From a virus: DNA of 40,481 nt. The position numbers were made by a program, and so were the translations under genes. How positions within the stretch are numbered: position 1 is the first letter of the stretch; the number at the start of each line of letters is the position of its first letter. Under the pieces are notes generated by a model. It saw nothing but the letters and a program-made list of their open reading frames with translations, was not told the origin of the DNA and searched no databases. Below, one piece after another: positions 2,243 to 7,247 of this stretch. The stretch spans positions 1 through 40,481 of IMG/VR virus record IMGVR_UViG_3300030102_003384, one strand, 5' to 3'.

Positions 2243-2250
2243 TATATTTG
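2243..2250 (+). promoter_or_regulatory. Putative promoter of the ribozyme operon
   Basis: TATATTTG matches the TAnnTTTG -7 consensus. It is the only good candidate upstream of the ribozyme-punctuated genes. No exact TTTG -33 box is present at 19-21 nt. Confidence 0.45.
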
Positions 2251-2398
2251 TTCAATAATTACTCTTGATTTATTCAAGATAATAGTATTCGAAAGAGGCG
2301 ACTCGATAGGCAGATTAGACCCTTGAAAGCCAATGAGACAAGCAGATGAAGTTGAACTTTGACATACTGAAAAAACATAGTTTTTAAAGTAATTAAAA
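2251..2398 (+). other. Structured leader of the ribozyme operon
   Basis: About 150 nt of untranslated sequence separate the promoter from the first ribozyme. Local hairpins are visible: CTTGA with TCAAG near 2263-2278, and AAGT with ACTT near 2349-2359. The segment is less A/T-rich than its surroundings. I could not match it to any riboswitch or ribozyme class. Confidence 0.35.
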
Positions 2399-2472
2399 AC
2401 AGGTTTGCGCCTGTCTAAATAGGTATTAAGCGCAAAGCGGTGCGGATGTGTTTAAACATATTTGCGCGTTAC
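2399..2472 (+). ncRNA. Pistol self-cleaving ribozyme A
   Basis: All pistol elements are present. P1 is ACAGG (2399-2403) with CCTGT (2410-2414). The P1 loop TTTGCG (2404-2409) forms the pseudoknot with CGCAAA (2431-2436). P2 is GTA (2423-2425) with TAC (2470-2472), followed by TTAAG (2426-2430). The conserved GCG is at 2437-2439. P3 has 11 pairs (2440-2450 with 2457-2467, including G-U pairs) closed by a TTTAAA loop. The family cleaves between G and U, here G2468 and T2469. That leaves a 24-nt leader before the ATG at 2493. The layout matches the published pistol architecture; activity is untested. Confidence 0.88.
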
Positions 2473-2492
2473 AAACTTTAAAATTAAAAATT

Positions 2493-2813
2493 ATGAATAC
2501 TTATATTAAAAATCTGGAAAAAGAAATTATAGAAATAGTGCAAGATGAAATTCTTGCAGGATACATTGAAGAGCGTGAATTTGAGGATAAAATAAGTGAT
2601 AGAGTTCACGAATTTGTTGATAATCATTTAATCTATTATGCAGACCAAATTAAAGTAATTCAAGAATTACATTTATACGATTTTTCGGAAATGGATAACC
2701 CTCAAAATATCGGACAAGTTGCATATTTTGGAATACTAGATGAATTATATAATTCGGGCGAAGTATTTTTTAAACATAATTATAAATTTACTTTGGCTGA
2801 TTTAGTCGACTAA
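2493..2813 (+). CDS. Hypothetical acidic protein, 106 aa
   Basis: A soluble, strongly acidic, mostly helical protein (MNTYIKNLEKEIIEIVQDEI...) with no recognisable domain. The ATG at 2493 is preferred over an in-frame GTG at 2448, because the GTG lies inside the P3 helix of ribozyme A and would be cut off by cleavage, whereas 2493 sits 24 nt after the cut. The stop codon (2811-2813) lies in the P1 loop of ribozyme B, so termination and ribozyme folding share bases. It is the first gene of the ribozyme-punctuated operon. Function unknown. Confidence 0.7.
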   Translation: MNTYIKNLEKEIIEIVQDEILAGYIEEREFEDKISDRVHEFVDNHLIYYADQIKVIQELHLYDFSEMDNPQNIGQVAYFGILDELYNSGEVFFKHNYKFTLADLVD

Positions 2814-2868
2814 GCGACTTTAAAGAGGTATTAGGCTTAGAGCGTCCCCGATATTTCGGGGGGTTTAC
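2804..2868 (+). ncRNA. Pistol self-cleaving ribozyme B
   Basis: P1 is AGTCG (2804-2808) with CGACT (2815-2819). Loop nucleotides CTAAG (2810-2814) form the pseudoknot with CTTAG (2836-2840). P2 is GTA (2828-2830) with TAC (2866-2868), followed by TTAGG. GCG is at 2842-2844. P3 is CCCCG (2846-2850) with CGGGG (2857-2861), flanked by a T2845-G2862 wobble like the one in known pistols. Predicted cleavage is G2863/T2864, 26 nt before the next ATG. Its loop is ATATTT instead of TTTAAA, and two nucleotides separate the cut from P2. The preceding gene's stop codon lies in the P1 loop. Confidence 0.87.
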
Positions 2869-2889
2869 AAACTTTAAAAATAAATAACT

Positions 2890-3507
2890 ATGAAAAAATC
2901 TAAATTAAGTCGTGAAAATTATCTAATTGAAGCGACTGACATAATGCGTAAATCTTTATTCAAGCCGAAAGGCTATAAAGTGCCTAAGGTTGAGTTATCA
3001 ATTTCGTGGGCGACTCGAGGCAATAGAAACAGAAAGGGCGACGCTAAGACGCTCGGACAATGTTTCAGGAAATTTGCTCACGCGGGTAATATAAACCAAA
3101 TTGTTATTACGCCAAATTATGACGGCTCAACAATTAAGGGCTCTATTGAAATTCTCGGGACTTTGGTACACGAGTTAGTCCACGCCGTTGACGATTGCGC
3201 TTCGGGGCACGGAAAAGCTTTTAAAGATTGCGCGCTTGCTGTTGGACTTTTACCCCCAATGAGAAGCACGCCCGAAAGCGAAGAATTGAAAAAGTGGTTA
3301 AGAGAAAATATTCTTGACAAACTCGGACTTTTCCCGCACAAAAAAGTAACCCTTAACGGCACAAAAAAGCAGACGACAAGAAACATAAAAGTTGCTTGCA
3401 ATTGCTGTGAATTTTCTTTCCGTACCTCAAGAAAAAATCTTGAGATGATGATAACGGATAATTGCCCAGCGTGTGATGACGGGGAAGGCTACCTATCAGT
3501 AGCATAA
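2890..3507 (+). CDS. SprT-like zinc metalloprotease domain protein
   Basis: This 205-residue protein has the SprT/Spartan-like signature: HELVH at 94-98 (HExxH, two zinc ligands plus the catalytic Glu) and a downstream GHGKAF (107-112) supplying the third His. A C-terminal zinc ribbon is built from C170, C172/C173, C192 and C195. Cellular relatives in the Spartan branch cut proteins crosslinked to DNA. Phage copies are common but largely uncharacterised. It sits between a pistol ribozyme upstream and a hammerhead downstream. Roles in clearing host proteins from DNA or in protecting replication are plausible guesses. The start ATG is 26 nt after the ribozyme B cut. Confidence 0.85.
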   Translation: MKKSKLSRENYLIEATDIMRKSLFKPKGYKVPKVELSISWATRGNRNRKGDAKTLGQCFRKFAHAGNINQIVITPNYDGSTIKGSIEILGTLVHELVHAVDDCASGHGKAFKDCALAVGLLPPMRSTPESEELKKWLRENILDKLGLFPHKKVTLNGTKKQTTRNIKVACNCCEFSFRTSRKNLEMMITDNCPACDDGEGYLSVA

Positions 3508-3509
3508 AA

Positions 3510-3574
3510 GTAAATCTGATGAGCTCTCAATGAGCGAAACTAACGGGCTGTTTAAACAGCCCTTAGTCATTTAC
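3510..3574 (+). ncRNA. Type I hammerhead ribozyme 1
   Basis: Stem I is GTAAAT (3510-3515) with ATTTAC (3569-3574). The core CTGATGA is at 3516-3522. Stem II is GCTC (3523-3526) with GAGC (3532-3535). The core GAAA is at 3536-3539. Stem III (3540-3567) has ten pairs, one bulge and a TTTAAA loop, plus the canonical A3539-T3567 pair. The cleavage triplet is GTC, with the cut after C3568. Every invariant hammerhead nucleotide is present, with an open stem I. The cut lies 26 nt before the ATG at 3595, and the ribozyme begins 2 nt after the SprT-like gene's stop. Confidence 0.94.
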
Positions 3575-3594
3575 AAATAATAAATTTTATAACT

Positions 3595-3882
3595 ATGAAA
3601 GCAAAAGTTAATTCTTTAATTAGTCCACGAAGTGGAAGACCCGTACCAAATCAATTTGAAATTGAGACCGACAAATATTATATTTTTCAAAGCTACAATT
3701 CAATAATAGCAAAGAAAGAAAGAGGTTTTATGGGAAAGGTAATATTAGACCCAAAATATTGGGATTATTCGGCAACCACTTTAAAATATCTAAAGCAATT
3801 TTTAGGTATTTCTTTAACTAAAAAAGAGATAGAAAGCTATATAAAGCAAGGTATTTATAAAACTAAAAACTTAAATAGCTAG
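3595..3882 (+). CDS. Hypothetical phage protein, 95 aa
   Basis: A basic, soluble protein beginning MKAKVNSLISPRSGRPVPNQ, then a beta-rich stretch with aromatic residues (YYIFQSYNSIIAK) and a DPKYWDYSATTLKYLKQFLG segment. I recall similar short proteins in phages and plasmids of Bacteroidetes, usually listed under domains of unknown function, so it looks like a real family, but I cannot give a role. It lies between hammerheads 1 and 2. The start is set by the ATG 26 nt after the predicted cut, within the same A/T-rich leader type as its neighbours. Confidence 0.72.
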   Translation: MKAKVNSLISPRSGRPVPNQFEIETDKYYIFQSYNSIIAKKERGFMGKVILDPKYWDYSATTLKYLKQFLGISLTKKEIESYIKQGIYKTKNLNS

Positions 3883-3883
3883 A

Positions 3884-3946
3884 GTAAATCTGACGAGTCC
3901 TAAGTGGACGAAACGGGGGTAATGTTTAAACGCCCCCGTCATTTAC
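3884..3946 (+). ncRNA. Type I hammerhead ribozyme 2
   Basis: Stem I is GTAAAT (3884-3889) with ATTTAC (3941-3946). The core CTGACGA is at 3890-3896; C at the variable seventh core position is allowed. Stem II is GTCC (3897-3900) with GGAC (3906-3909). GAAA is at 3910-3913. Stem III is a CGGGGG/CCCCCG helix (3914-3919 with 3933-3938) plus A3913-T3939, capped by a loop containing GTTTAAAC. The cut is predicted after C3940, in a GTC triplet, 25 nt before the ATG at 3966. Stems II and III differ in sequence from hammerhead 1 but keep pairing, so the structure is conserved by covariation. Confidence 0.94.
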
Positions 3947-3965
3947 AAACATTAAATTTATAACT

Positions 3966-4109
3966 ATGAATAAAACTAAATGGCACGGGCTTGAGCAACG
4001 CAAAGCCAATTACAGAACAAGAGAGTGGGTCAAGTCACTTTCTGACGCTGACGCCAAGCGTATGAATATAGACAAAGAAAAAGCAATTAAAAACTTTAAT
4101 AATGGATAA
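3966..4109 (+). CDS. Hypothetical protein, 47 aa
   Basis: A short basic protein, MNKTKWHGLEQRKANYRTRE followed by a helical segment rich in Lys, Asp and Ala. Three points support it: its ATG sits at the standard distance (25 nt) after the hammerhead 2 cut, the leader is of the shared type, and its end overlaps the next gene by 8 bp (ATGGATAA), typical of coupled translation. No domain is recognised. The Arg/Lys content would suit nucleic-acid binding, but that is speculation. Confidence 0.6.
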   Translation: MNKTKWHGLEQRKANYRTREWVKSLSDADAKRMNIDKEKAIKNFNNG

Positions 4110-4275
4110 ATTTAAAATCAATAAATATTTAATTGAAGCCCAAGATTATTTAGCAAGTATTGATATTCAAGAATGTCAAGAAACTGAAGATTCAATTTAC
4201 AGGGCTGAAAAGCTATTAGAAAAAATTCAAATAGAATTATTTTCAAATCGTTTGAGCGATTCAAAACCACATTAG
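4102..4275 (+). CDS. Hypothetical protein, 57 aa
   Basis: A small acidic, helical protein (MDKFKINKYLIEAQDYLASI...). It has no ribozyme of its own in front and overlaps the previous gene by 8 bp, so the pair would be translated from one processed mRNA. Its last ~10 codons and stop codon also form P1, the P2 strand and the start of the linker of pistol ribozyme C, so the DNA is constrained both as protein and as RNA structure. Function unknown. Confidence 0.6.
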   Translation: MDKFKINKYLIEAQDYLASIDIQECQETEDSIYRAEKLLEKIQIELFSNRLSDSKPH

Positions 4276-4314
4276 GCTCAAAGCGTCCGAGTTGTTTAAA
4301 CGACTCGGGGTTGT
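4246..4314 (+). ncRNA. Pistol self-cleaving ribozyme C, overlapping a coding end
   Basis: P1 is AATCG (4246-4250) with CGATT (4257-4261). The loop TTTGAG (4251-4256) pairs with CTCAAA (4277-4282) as the pseudoknot. P2 is ACA (4269-4271) with TGT (4312-4314), followed by TTAGG. GCG is at 4283-4285. P3 is TCCGAGTTG (4286-4294) with CGACTCGGG (4301-4309), including a starting T-G wobble and a TTTAAA loop. Predicted cleavage is G4310/T4311, 26 nt before the ATG at 4337. P1 lies inside the coding region of the preceding gene. P2 reads ACA/TGT here and in D but GTA/TAC in A and B, a compensatory change. Confidence 0.88.
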
Positions 4315-4336
4315 ATAACTTTAAAACAAACAAATT

Positions 4337-4579
4337 ATGAGTAATATGAGTTATTGCAGATTCGAAAATACTGCAAGCGATTTACAAGATTGCCTTGACG
4401 CTGTCGAGGAATTGATAAACTATAACGGAAAGAATAGTTATGGGGAAGCATTAAGCGAGAGCGAAAAAGAAGCGTTCGACGAGATGATTGAACTTACGGC
4501 TCAATTTAACAATTTAGCTACACGAGTGGCTGAATTGGTAGAAAGAGAGTATGAGAAATATCATTCGGAATTTGAGTAA
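4337..4579 (+). CDS. Hypothetical phage protein, 80 aa
   Basis: A small acidic helical protein starting MSNMSYCRFENTASDLQDCL. The SYCRFENT opening followed by a DLQDC helix is one I recall from many short phage proteins without known function. A second in-frame ATG at 4346 could also serve as start; the one at 4337 fits the 26-nt leader after ribozyme C better. No metal-binding or catalytic motif is evident; the two Cys are not arranged as a zinc site. Confidence 0.7.
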   Translation: MSNMSYCRFENTASDLQDCLDAVEELINYNGKNSYGEALSESEKEAFDEMIELTAQFNNLATRVAELVEREYEKYHSEFE

Positions 4580-4649
4580 ACTCGTATCGGCGAGTATAAA
4601 AAGACATTAAGCCGATAGCGTCCACTCTGTTTAAACGGGGTGGGGTTGT
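4580..4649 (+). ncRNA. Pistol self-cleaving ribozyme D
   Basis: P1 is ACTCG (4580-4584) with CGAGT (4591-4595). The loop TATCGG (4585-4590) pairs with CCGATA (4612-4617). P2 is ACA (4604-4606) with TGT (4647-4649), followed by TTAAG (4607-4611). GCG is at 4618-4620. P3 is TCCACTCTG (4621-4629) with CGGGGTGGG (4636-4644), including wobbles and a TTTAAA loop. Predicted cleavage is G4645/T4646, 26 nt before the ATG at 4672. P1 starts one base after the preceding stop codon. The pseudoknot sequence differs in every copy yet always pairs. Confidence 0.89.
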
Positions 4650-4671
4650 ATAACTTTAAACAAATATAACT

Positions 4672-4953
4672 ATGAAATGGAATGAAAAATATGAAATAAA
4701 TATTTCCAAAGAAGATTGGACTAAACTTTCTGATTCTGACAAAGAAGAATTTGCTATTAGTTTTTGGGCAGAAGAAGTCGACCAAGTTGTTGGAGACGAT
4801 AATATGGTTTCAGGTTGGTTGCAAGATATTTACGAAGCGACTTTGCGTGTGCAAGACGACTCAAACGGAAGCATACCAAGTGAAATATTAAACCAAGTCC
4901 AAAGAAAAGTAAATCTTATGCACAGAGTTGGCAAAGGTATTTACGCAAAGTAA
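4672..4953 (+). CDS. Hypothetical protein, 93 aa
   Basis: An acidic soluble protein (MKWNEKYEINISKEDWTKLS...), predicted mostly helical, with several Trp residues and no recognised domain. The start is placed by the conserved 26-nt leader after pistol D. Its stop codon TAA (4951-4953) lies inside stem I of hammerhead 3, so translating ribosomes and ribozyme folding compete for the same bases. Function unknown. Confidence 0.68.
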   Translation: MKWNEKYEINISKEDWTKLSDSDKEEFAISFWAEEVDQVVGDDNMVSGWLQDIYEATLRVQDDSNGSIPSEILNQVQRKVNLMHRVGKGIYAK

Positions 4954-5017
4954 ATCTGATGAGGTCTTATAGACCGAAAACAAGAGAATGTTTAAACGCT
5001 TTCTCTTGTTCATTTAC
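4950..5017 (+). ncRNA. Type I hammerhead ribozyme 3
   Basis: Stem I is GTAAAT (4950-4955) with ATTTAC (5012-5017). CTGATGA is at 4956-4962. Stem II is GGTCT (4963-4967) with AGACC (4971-4975). GAAA is at 4976-4979. Stem III pairs A4979-T5010 and ACAAGAGAA (4980-4988) with TTCTCTTGT (5001-5009), closed by a loop with GTTTAAAC. The cleavage triplet is TTC, with the cut after C5011, 27 nt before the ATG at 5039. The upstream gene's stop codon is part of stem I. Confidence 0.94.
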
Positions 5018-5038
5018 TAACTTTAAAACAAACAAATT

Positions 5039-5350
5039 ATGTATCATACAAAAGAAGAATTAATACAAGAAGAACTTGAAATTCATTTCATCTTCGATAG
5101 CTTAACTACGGCTGACGATTATGAGTTATGGTGGTTGGTAGAGACCGACCCTTTGGCAGATTCAAAGGTGTACTCTCATCCAATAGACCCCGAACATTTA
5201 TACTATTACGACCACGACTTTGAAGAGAAGTGTCAAACGATAGTAAGAGCGTCCGTTCATAACCCTAGAATAAGTTTTCAAAACTATTATTTTGATGACG
5301 AAGTCGTAGAGGAATGGGTCGCAGATGAAAAGGAAGAAATTGTTAATTAG
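5039..5350 (+). CDS. Hypothetical acidic protein, 103 aa
   Basis: A very acidic protein (MYHTKEELIQEELEIHFIFD...), rich in Asp, Glu, Tyr and His, without signal peptide or membrane segment. It is the last gene of the ribozyme array: it has hammerhead 3 upstream, but downstream has an ordinary intrinsic terminator whose hairpin loop carries the same TTTAAA. Highly acidic small phage proteins can mimic DNA to inhibit host nucleases or repressors; here that is only a possibility. Function unknown. Confidence 0.68.
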   Translation: MYHTKEELIQEELEIHFIFDSLTTADDYELWWLVETDPLADSKVYSHPIDPEHLYYYDHDFEEKCQTIVRASVHNPRISFQNYYFDDEVVEEWVADEKEEIVN

Positions 5351-5385
5351 TTTAGGTTTGTAACCCGACTTTGTCGGAATAAAAG

Positions 5386-5417
5386 AGAGGGTGTTTAAAC
5401 GCACCCTCTTTTTTTTT
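5386..5417 (+). terminator. Intrinsic terminator ending the ribozyme operon
   Basis: The stem AGAGGGTG (5386-5393) with CACCCTCT (5402-5409) encloses a loop containing TTTAAA and runs into nine consecutive T (5409-5417). It resembles stem III and P3 of the ribozymes upstream but lacks any ribozyme core. Confidence 0.9.
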
Positions 5418-5426
5418 GTAAAATAA

Positions 5427-5458
5427 TTTGGTTATTAAAAAGTAATTACATATCTTTA
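5427..5458 (+). promoter_or_regulatory. Bacteroidetes-type promoter
   Basis: A TTTG -33 box (5427-5430), 20 nt, and TATCTTTA (5451-5458) near the -7 consensus. It lies just after the terminator and 26 nt upstream of the ATG at 5485. The stretch TAATTACATATCTTT is shared exactly with the promoter at 7217-7247. Confidence 0.72.
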
Positions 5459-5484: not shown

Positions 5485-5730
5485 ATGAAACACGATATTT
5501 GGAAACTTAGAAGAGAGGCTAAGGCAGTAACTGAAAGGTCAGTTAAGACCATAGTCGTACAATATGTGTCAGCTATAACGGGTGTCGGTCAAGCTGATGT
5601 TATCAAGAACGCAGATAAGATTAAATTATCTGATATACTTGACGCTCAAATTAAAGAGCAGAGTTTGGTTTTCGATTGGGAAAGCTGGAGAGATTTACAA
5701 CTTGCGTGTAAAGATACCAACTTAACTTAA
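5485..5730 (+). CDS. Hypothetical protein, 81 aa
   Basis: A mixed-charge helical protein (MKHDIWKLRREAKAVTERSV...) that opens a new operon directly behind its own promoter. The central VSAITGVGQADVIKNADKIKL segment has the spacing of a small helix-turn-helix or helix-hairpin-helix, but similarity is too weak to name it. One untranslated base separates it from the next gene. Function unknown; early regulatory roles are common at this position. Confidence 0.65.
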   Translation: MKHDIWKLRREAKAVTERSVKTIVVQYVSAITGVGQADVIKNADKIKLSDILDAQIKEQSLVFDWESWRDLQLACKDTNLT

Positions 5731-5731
5731 G

Positions 5732-6025
5732 ATGAAAAAAGTAAAAAATTGTTCAGTACAATGGGACGGATTAGATGTTCATGCTTGGGTAGAATATCAA
5801 GCAGAACTAGGAGAGCCTAAGAAAAATCTTTTAATAAAAGATTACGATAATTTGACCGAGAGTCAAAGAGACATACTACTTAGTATGTGTGAGGAAGCGA
5901 TTGAAGAGTATGAGGATAGTATTATATCTCATATAAACGATTGTATCGCTGAGTTTGTTAGCACAAACCTTGACGCTATTGTAAAAGATTTAGTCAAAGA
6001 TAAAATTTGTAGCTATGCAGATTGA
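5732..6025 (+). CDS. Hypothetical acidic protein, 97 aa
   Basis: An acidic protein starting MKKVKNCSVQWDGLDVHAWV. The N-terminal half looks like a short beta sheet and the C-terminal half is a long Glu/Asp-rich helix. No recognised domain. It overlaps the following gene by 11 bp in another frame, which suggests coupled translation within an operon of six or more tiny genes. Function unknown. Confidence 0.65.
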   Translation: MKKVKNCSVQWDGLDVHAWVEYQAELGEPKKNLLIKDYDNLTESQRDILLSMCEEAIEEYEDSIISHINDCIAEFVSTNLDAIVKDLVKDKICSYAD

Positions 6026-6200
6026 TTCAAAACAAATCGAAAAGCTAGTAAAAGAGATAGAGCGTTTAAACAAGCCCTCTATAAAACTTGTTGATTCTCC
6101 AAAGAGAGAAATCAGGAAGGTTGATAACCTATTGTCTATGCAAGCGTGGGCAATGGAAGAATTATGGAAAGCACTAGAAATTAATAAAAATAAAAGATGA
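6015..6200 (+). CDS. Hypothetical protein, 61 aa
   Basis: A short Lys/Glu-rich helical protein (MQIDSKQIEKLVKEIERLNK...) with coiled-coil-like heptads in its first third. It overlaps the genes on both sides (11 bp upstream, ATGA downstream), strong evidence that it is translated. It carries a GTTTAAAC site at 6064. No function recognised. Confidence 0.62.
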   Translation: MQIDSKQIEKLVKEIERLNKPSIKLVDSPKREIRKVDNLLSMQAWAMEELWKALEINKNKR

Positions 6201-6361
6201 AAGTAAAACAATATTCAAGAGAGTATTACGAGTACATAGAGGAAAAGATAGTACCCTATGAAGATACTGAGGTACAGCTTCAATATTATAAAGGAGAAAT
6301 CGGTTATGATGAAGATTATGTAAAAGAACATTTAGAAAATAATAACATTAAATTAACTTAA
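6197..6361 (+). CDS. Hypothetical protein, 54 aa
   Basis: A small acidic, Tyr-rich protein (MKVKQYSREYYEYIEEKIVP...) of 54 residues. The ATG overlaps the previous stop as ATGA, and the next gene starts 1 nt after its own stop, so the frame is embedded in a compact operon. No domain or membrane segment is visible and I do not recognise it. Confidence 0.6.
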   Translation: MKVKQYSREYYEYIEEKIVPYEDTEVQLQYYKGEIGYDEDYVKEHLENNNIKLT

Positions 6362-6362
6362 A

Positions 6363-6617
6363 ATGGAAAAACAATTAAAGGTAACGGGTGTACGATACTT
6401 TAAAACTCGAAGAGGGTTAGGGTATGAGTGCACGACAAATATAAAAGGATTGCTGATTTGGAATGACGGCAACGGAGGTGGCACATATTTAGATTGCGAC
6501 TTTCAGAATATGAATAGAAGAGAACTCTATCAATACGAAGAGGAGTATTCGGAACTAGATTTAGAACATCTCATAAATGTATATGAGGGTGTGGATTTAA
6601 TAAATAAATATATATAG
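6363..6617 (+). CDS. Hypothetical phage protein, 84 aa
   Basis: A soluble protein starting MEKQLKVTGVRYFKTRRGLG, followed by a Gly- and Asn-rich loop (WNDGNGGGTY) and an acidic helical tail. The VTGVRYFKTRRGLGYE pattern is familiar to me from short phage proteins of unknown role. The beta-rich first half with basic residues could bind nucleic acid; this is speculative. It lies 1 nt after one gene and 2 nt before the next. Confidence 0.65.
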   Translation: MEKQLKVTGVRYFKTRRGLGYECTTNIKGLLIWNDGNGGGTYLDCDFQNMNRRELYQYEEEYSELDLEHLINVYEGVDLINKYI

Positions 6618-6619
6618 TT

Positions 6620-6913
6620 ATGGAAAGACACGACTACGATTTAAAACAAAGGGAAGATGATATGATAAACGTATTATCTGAAGATGTACACGCACGAGGT
6701 TATTCAGTAAACATAATTTTTGAATATAAAACTGAGAAGTATTTAGCGTGGGGACATTTAGAAGAAGACGGACAGCTTGGAGATTATTGGGGAGTAGATG
6801 TTCTTAATCAGGGAGAAGTTAGCTGGAAACATCCAAATAGGGATAAGCTAGAGGATATCGCACATAATTTAATGAGTGATTTTCATGTAACAAAAGATAA
6901 ACTTGAATTGTAA
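6620..6913 (+). CDS. Hypothetical protein, 97 aa
   Basis: An acidic protein of mixed predicted structure (MERHDYDLKQREDDMINVLS...), with a central aromatic stretch (WGHLEEDGQLGDYWGVDV). No catalytic motif or domain recognised. It is tightly packed in the small-gene operon; the next gene's ATG follows its stop by 1 nt. Confidence 0.63.
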   Translation: MERHDYDLKQREDDMINVLSEDVHARGYSVNIIFEYKTEKYLAWGHLEEDGQLGDYWGVDVLNQGEVSWKHPNRDKLEDIAHNLMSDFHVTKDKLEL

Positions 6914-7216: not shown

Positions 7217-7247
7217 TTTGTTATTCAAAAATAATTACATATCTTTG
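7217..7247 (+). promoter_or_regulatory. Bacteroidetes-type promoter
   Basis: TTTG (7217-7220), 19 nt, then TATCTTTG (7240-7247) followed by C: a full match to the Bacteroidetes consensus. It should drive the replication and recombination genes from 7261 on. Confidence 0.82.

Follow-up and report, generated by a model that had tools for sequence, protein, structure and literature searches.

Seven predicted self-cleaving ribozymes, four of the pistol class and three type I hammerheads, stand at successive junctions of small genes near the left end of the window, the stretch of 40,481 bases (out of 40,979) that we analyzed in the IMG/VR virus record IMGVR_UViG_3300030102_003384. The best-supported reading of this array, and one that we consider likely, is serial self-cleaving punctuation, which would divide a single early message into seven mRNAs. 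The ribozymes are listed below with their predicted cuts, bit scores from the Rfam models RF02679 (pistol) and RF00163 (type I hammerhead), and expect values (E) from our own covariance model (CM) of phage hammerheads; g1 to g8 are the genes of the unit, nt stands for nucleotides.

2399..2473, + strand, pistol 1: 50.6 bits; pseudoknot TTTGCG/CGCAAA; cut 2468/2469
2804..2868, + strand, pistol 2: 60.3 bits; cut 2863/2864; overlaps the final 10 nt of g1
3510..3574, + strand, type I hammerhead 1: CM match 3516-3568, E 1e-4; cut 3568/3569
3884..3946, + strand, type I hammerhead 2: CM match, E 1.6e-11; RF00163 32.2 bits; cut 3940/3941
4246..4315, + strand, pistol 3: 58.9 bits; cut 4310/4311
4580..4650, + strand, pistol 4: 66.3 bits; cut 4645/4646; begins right after the g6 stop codon
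4949..5018, + strand, type I hammerhead 3: CM match 4950-4997, E 0.007, with stem III misaligned; cut 5011/5012

Identification of the ribozymes

A first-pass annotation, made from the sequence alone, had placed four pistols and three type I hammerheads within positions 2399-5017, and both halves of that claim hold, although by different routes. The four pistols score 50.6 to 66.3 bits, well above the gathering threshold of RF02679 (34.5 bits), and no Rfam family other than pistol exceeded its threshold in the window. Across 19 pistol sequences, 100% of the cells in P1 and the pseudoknot are paired, 8 of the 10 pairs show compensatory changes, and none of 500 shuffles was as good. Looser pistol candidates inside genes did not survive the requirement for a P3 hairpin and a cut.

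The Infernal search with Rfam models that had been proposed as a check thus bears out the pistols but not the hammerheads, which stay below the gathering threshold of 34 bits: RF00163 reports just 3884-3946, 3510-3576 reaches 18.9 bits with HH9, and the third hammerhead is missed by Rfam. Given this poor coverage by Rfam, we trained our own covariance model on 24 hammerheads from phages other than this one, so that the window contributed no sequence, and the model has exactly three matches in the 40,481 bases, the three hammerheads listed above. Since a core pattern and a structural descriptor served to gather its sequences, the model does depend on the definition of a hammerhead, though not on the window. 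The window has 3 copies of the core motif CTGANGA...CGAAA, versus 0.21 expected. The complete core (CUGANGA, GAA, A15.1-U16.1, and H17) is present in all three hammerheads, as are three stems with stem I open (6 to 7 base pairs [bp] in stem I, 4 to 5 bp in stem II, and 5 to 10 bp in stem III), and all three share the stem I sequence GUAAAU/AUUUAC. RF00163 likewise gave a single weak match in seven loci where the descriptor recognizes many hammerheads, and the Rfam hammerhead model, being insensitive, gave none across the records of 50 relatives. Since RF00163 is weak on such loci and the model from other phages finds all three hammerheads, the assignment is kept on core and structure. The survey described below suggests that the curated type I model misses most phage ribozymes of this kind, so that annotation based on RF00163 will miss such arrays.

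Among the hammerheads of other phages, 96% of the cells are paired and 13 of 16 pairs show compensatory changes; these sequences were selected by a descriptor that demands pairing, which makes the covariation in pistols the cleaner result. The hammerhead in front of the MGTRSLTH gene has the same core in two of the surveyed loci, L026 and L065, but differs between them in stem I (GATTAG/CTAATC versus ATTATAA/TTATAAT). Orthologous hammerheads in L026, L031, L044, L045, and L065 retain the core and mostly stem II, with the stem III loop swapped for unrelated inserts of up to ~60 nt.

Anatomy of the junctions

Run on the window, the structural descriptor returns exactly the seven ribozymes, all on the + strand. 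Pistols cut at G/U and hammerheads after H17; by these accepted rules, the first nucleotides of the products are predicted to be 2469, 2864, 3569, 3941, 4311, 4646, and 5012, which agrees to the base with the 5' ends named in the first-pass annotation. The next start codons, at 2493, 2890, 3595, 3966, 4337, 4672, and 5039, leave leaders of 24, 26, 26, 25, 26, 26, and 27 nt, respectively, and the gap between the upstream stop codon and the ribozyme ranges from -30 to +2 nt. Leaders after the cut are alike across both ribozyme classes: the one after pistol 3 (TTGTATAACTTTAAAACAAACAAATTATG) and the one after hammerhead 3 (ATTTACTAACTTTAAAACAAACAAATTATG) are identical in their last 24 letters. That two unrelated classes fill one kind of slot ahead of a common leader is strong evidence of selection on the cut and its products.

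Recurrence in other phages

The survey of IMG/VR took in loci seeded by matches to either of two core patterns or to a pistol pattern, plus loci of primase relatives, and the structural descriptor was applied to all of them. It found 178 ribozymes in 370 loci (3.8 megabases), counts that cannot be read as frequencies because the survey is biased by its seeds. Of these ribozymes, 68 were not the fetched seeds, versus 2.7 per shuffled set, and every non-seed ribozyme with a neighboring ribozyme (57 of 57) lies on the strand of its neighbor. At least two ribozymes are present in 40 loci, with some contigs overlapping in content. Hammerhead arrays include one of six members in L026 and five each in L045 and L065, and pistol arrays include four in L151 and three in L149. 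Mixed arrays are found in L157 (8079-11606; hammerhead, pistol, pistol, hammerhead, with both pistols confirmed by Rfam), in L461 (pistol and hammerhead), and in L100 (pistol and type III hammerhead), which adjoins a chaperonin gene, as does the array in the window, and carries a homologue of g2. In L157, Rfam adds a Twister-P5 ribozyme 2.4 kilobases (kb) downstream; this locus has three ribozyme classes on one strand within 3.5 kb, and its leaders are Shine-Dalgarno-like. Six hammerheads spread over 5 kb in L410 (6226-11139) have similar leaders of 44 to 45 nt, longer than those in the other arrays. The class may also change at one position: g6 is preceded by a pistol in the window, and its homologues in L049 and L255 are preceded by a hammerhead. 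Our search for cultured phages turned up none with a long array; Psychrobacillus phage Perkons has just one pistol in the 12 kb examined, and a similarity search with the array gave no match in annotated phages. A loose pistol pattern applied to genome contigs matched across all phyla, and these matches were taken as mostly chance. Overall, the survey suggests that this design is widespread among uncultured phages.

Median distances from the cut to the ATG codon in the survey are 24 nt for type I hammerheads and 26 nt for pistols, versus 53 nt at random positions, with median gaps between the stop codon and the ribozyme of -1.5 nt and 0 nt, respectively. The proposed placement of cuts 24 to 27 nt before the start codon, which holds at all seven junctions of the window, nevertheless does not extend to type III hammerheads, whose median cut is 66 nt upstream of the ATG (only 15 cases), and so is no general rule. 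Measured from the 3' end of the ribozyme, the median distances to the ATG are 18 nt for type I hammerheads, 22 nt for pistols, and 21 nt for type III hammerheads. As the cut distance varies by class and the 3'-end distance is close to 20 nt in all three, the spacing seen in the window would be a special case; judged by these predicted positions, what stays constant is the space left for a ribosome next to a structured element, not the position of the cut itself.

The transcription unit, the phage, and its host

The array unit and the start of the following one comprise these further features, all on the + strand (aa, amino acids).

2243..2250, + strand, putative promoter of the array unit: TATATTTG, matching the Bacteroidota -7 box TAnnTTTG
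2493..2813, + strand, g1: 106 aa; leader 24 nt
2890..3507, + strand, g2: 205 aa, SprT-like protein (phrog_6361); leader 26 nt
3595..3882, + strand, g3: 95 aa, phrog_21575; leader 26 nt
3966..4109, + strand, g4: 47 aa, with homologues in L180, L182, and L183; leader 25 nt
4102..4275, + strand, g5: 57 aa; overlaps g4, final 30 nt inside pistol 3
4337..4579, + strand, g6: 80 aa, phrog_8760; leader 26 nt
4672..4953, + strand, g7: 93 aa, TAA stop codon inside stem I of hammerhead 3; leader 26 nt
5039..5350, + strand, g8: 103 aa; leader 27 nt
~5381..5416, + strand, intrinsic terminator closing the unit: hairpin with a GTTTAAAC loop, then a T run
5427..5458, + strand, promoter-like sequence of the next unit: TTTG-N20-TATCTTTA, resembling the TTTG...TATCTTTG match at 7217

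No good -33 TTTG was seen for the putative promoter at 2243. Its presumed 5' leader (2257-2398), ~140 nt in front of pistol 1, folds together with the pistol better than shuffled sequences do (z -2.4). Between the putative promoter and the terminator lie g1 to g8 and the seven ribozymes (one further overlapping pair aside). The overlap of g4 and g5 places them on a single shared mRNA, so that there is not one ribozyme per gene; the proposal of single-gene mRNAs thus stands as to the seven predicted messages, one of which carries two genes. For g2, the Pfam SprT-like match stays below the cut-off, and a peptide-pattern scan of viral contigs gave no relatives, whereas a protein search did find distant ones in phages. 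PADLOC produced no match to the array genes.

The terminator fold (5370-5418) has a predicted energy of -19.4 kcal/mol (z -5.4), and none of the ribozyme hairpins is followed by a T run. We discounted weak Rfam matches to RatA, L20 leader, Yfr19, and Bp1_162, all of which coincide with the terminator. In the next unit (5485-6913), genes are spaced by -11 to +3 nt and the structural descriptor found no ribozymes; with this tightly packed unit, one phage has both designs side by side.

The palindrome GTTTAAAC forms the loop in 6 of the 7 ribozyme hairpins and in the terminator, with further copies inside genes. It has 18 sites in the window (2020 to 28797) versus ~1.8 expected and is the most overrepresented 8-bp palindrome there; L100 has 11 in 10.9 kb (0.54 expected), and the nearest relative, L178, has none. 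A role as a DNA-level signal seems possible from this distribution.

Early genes, including those for an ERF recombinase, a PD-(D/E)XK nuclease, a BT4734-like/DUF5906 primase-helicase, and a helicase, occupy the + strand from 2.4 to 16.3 kb, and structural genes, including one for a protein with a crAss-like muzzle domain, occupy the - strand from 16.6 to 40.4 kb. Among annotated phages with a named host, those with the closest matches to the primase-helicase infect Flavobacterium, Polaribacter, Maribacter, and Bacteroides, so that this double-stranded DNA phage probably infects a member of the Bacteroidota.

Proposed function and alternatives

Under serial punctuation, positions 2243-5416 would constitute the first early transcription unit, starting at the putative promoter, with nine small open reading frames and the seven ribozymes on its single transcript. 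Each ribozyme, which starts at or overlaps the upstream stop codon and ends ~20 nt before the next start codon, would cut the RNA as it emerges from transcription. Of the two products, the upstream mRNA would carry a 2',3'-cyclic phosphate and a strong terminal hairpin, formed by pistol P3 or hammerhead stem III, right behind its stop codon; the downstream mRNA would begin with a 5'-hydroxyl and an A/U-rich leader of 24 to 27 nt. The outcome would be seven mRNAs, one with two genes, that could be translated and decay independently, with punctuation replacing the tight gene overlaps of the next unit. As each junction works alone, the combination of ribozyme, leader, and gene would also behave as an exchangeable cassette. 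Cleavage of these seven RNAs, the fates of the mRNAs, and processing without any host nuclease are what we infer from sequence and predicted structure. This reading is favored because of the bounded unit, the co-orientation and placement of the ribozymes, the compensatory changes in their helices, the class swaps, and the recurrence in unrelated phages.

Some observations weigh against it. Ribozymes are found in only ~8 of the 80 primase-relative loci, many of which are partial. In the predicted fold of the full transcript, the pairing probability of hammerhead stem I is 0.01 to 0.30, compared with 0.72 to 0.99 for stems II and III, so that cleavage may be partial or may need tertiary contacts. 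Furthermore, some junctions can do without their ribozymes: two genes that have pistols in L149 have none in L151, with the leader kept.

The last point bears on an alternative that we consider unlikely, though not negligible, namely, that the ribozymes persist mainly as repeated islands of homology for early-gene swaps and that cleavage hardly affects expression. L149 and L151 belong to sister phages (94 to 99% identity over the shared flanks) in which two genes are swapped and the alignment breakpoints coincide with pistols, near-identical leaders are found in unrelated phages (after pistol 3 of the window and in L151), and the occurrence of arrays among relatives is sporadic. These breaks of gene order at ribozymes, together with the orthologous genes that lack one, indicate that ribozymes also act like cassette linkers. 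However, compensatory helix changes, invariant orientation, and fixed placement relative to stop and start codons point to selection on the RNA product, and one class has been replaced by the other with the leader retained. Cassette exchange is probably real as an evolutionary consequence; on its own, it would leave the compensatory changes in RNA helices unexplained. Much less probable is that the cut serves to remove upstream RNA that sequesters the next start site: the cuts do lie approximately at the expected edge of the 30S footprint, but the predicted mean unpaired probability of the leaders is similar before and after the cut (0.52 to 0.74 versus 0.60 to 0.84), and two leaders become worse. 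We give the least credence to circular or religated mRNAs, produced by joining the 5'-hydroxyl and the 2',3'-cyclic phosphate through RtcB or the hammerhead back-reaction. The end chemistry is suitable, and the shared stem I would allow the leader of one hammerhead to pair into the next, but only the g3 mRNA, one of seven, is flanked by two hammerheads as the hammerhead route demands, no RNA ligase was found among the window proteins scanned with Pfam, and an earlier study (PMC3088659) sought such products without finding any.

A broader proposal, to which we hold tentatively and with slightly more doubt than confidence, is that phage early operons generally rely on punctuation by ribozymes, with the slot between stop and start codons open to any small self-cleaving class (pistol, type I or III hammerhead, perhaps twister). 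Each early gene would then be a cassette, expressed independently and free to be gained or reshuffled, in many cases next to anti-restriction genes (ArdC, ArdA). In L178, whose primase is 85% identical to that of the window, one pistol in the syntenic place is followed by other genes, including ArdC; ArdC is also found downstream of a hammerhead in L049, and phage Perkons encodes ArdA 2 kb from its pistol, which recalls the ardA genes beside ribozymes in PMC3088659. These few cases suggest a link between ribozymes and anti-restriction genes.

Comparison with known systems

For most small self-cleaving ribozymes of bacteria and phages, no natural role has been proven, to our knowledge.

The pistols of the window are the same as known pistols (RF02679; PMC4604425) in fold, pseudoknot, and cut position. 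Pistols have been known to occur near phage genes and, owing to the discovery strategy, near other ribozymes; they are prevalent in Firmicutes, and their serial intergenic use is not described in the accessible literature. In haloviruses HF1 and HF2, the HHphage hammerhead variant precedes the start codon of an early gene by 13 nt, and a mapped transcript 5' end is within 3 nt of the cut (PMC3088659); this variant differs from the hammerheads described here in being a single ribozyme at its site, with a variant core and an archaeal host.

The closest precedent is the set of clustered prophage hammerheads described by Perreault et al. in 2011 (PMC3088659), for which the authors already put forward the same mRNA-processing hypothesis and showed that an Agrobacterium triple cleaves in vitro and in E. 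coli. Like those arrays, the one in the window has several co-oriented ribozymes, here seven on the + strand, that flank single phage genes or short gene blocks in one predicted transcript. The earlier arrays consist of hammerheads only, those tested being short, with no pistol and not seven in series, and neither a shared leader nor contact with stop codons is described in the parts consulted. The first-pass annotation had regarded a mixed serial array used as mRNA punctuation as undescribed. This view holds for the mixed seven-member form, which is not described in the openly searchable literature, but not for clusters of phage hammerheads, and the punctuation idea itself dates from 2011. 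What appears to be new is the combination of seven ribozymes in series, two classes, and a shared leader behind both, as opposed to the clusters and the processing idea, and an array with seven junctions makes the 2011 hypothesis directly testable in one transcript.

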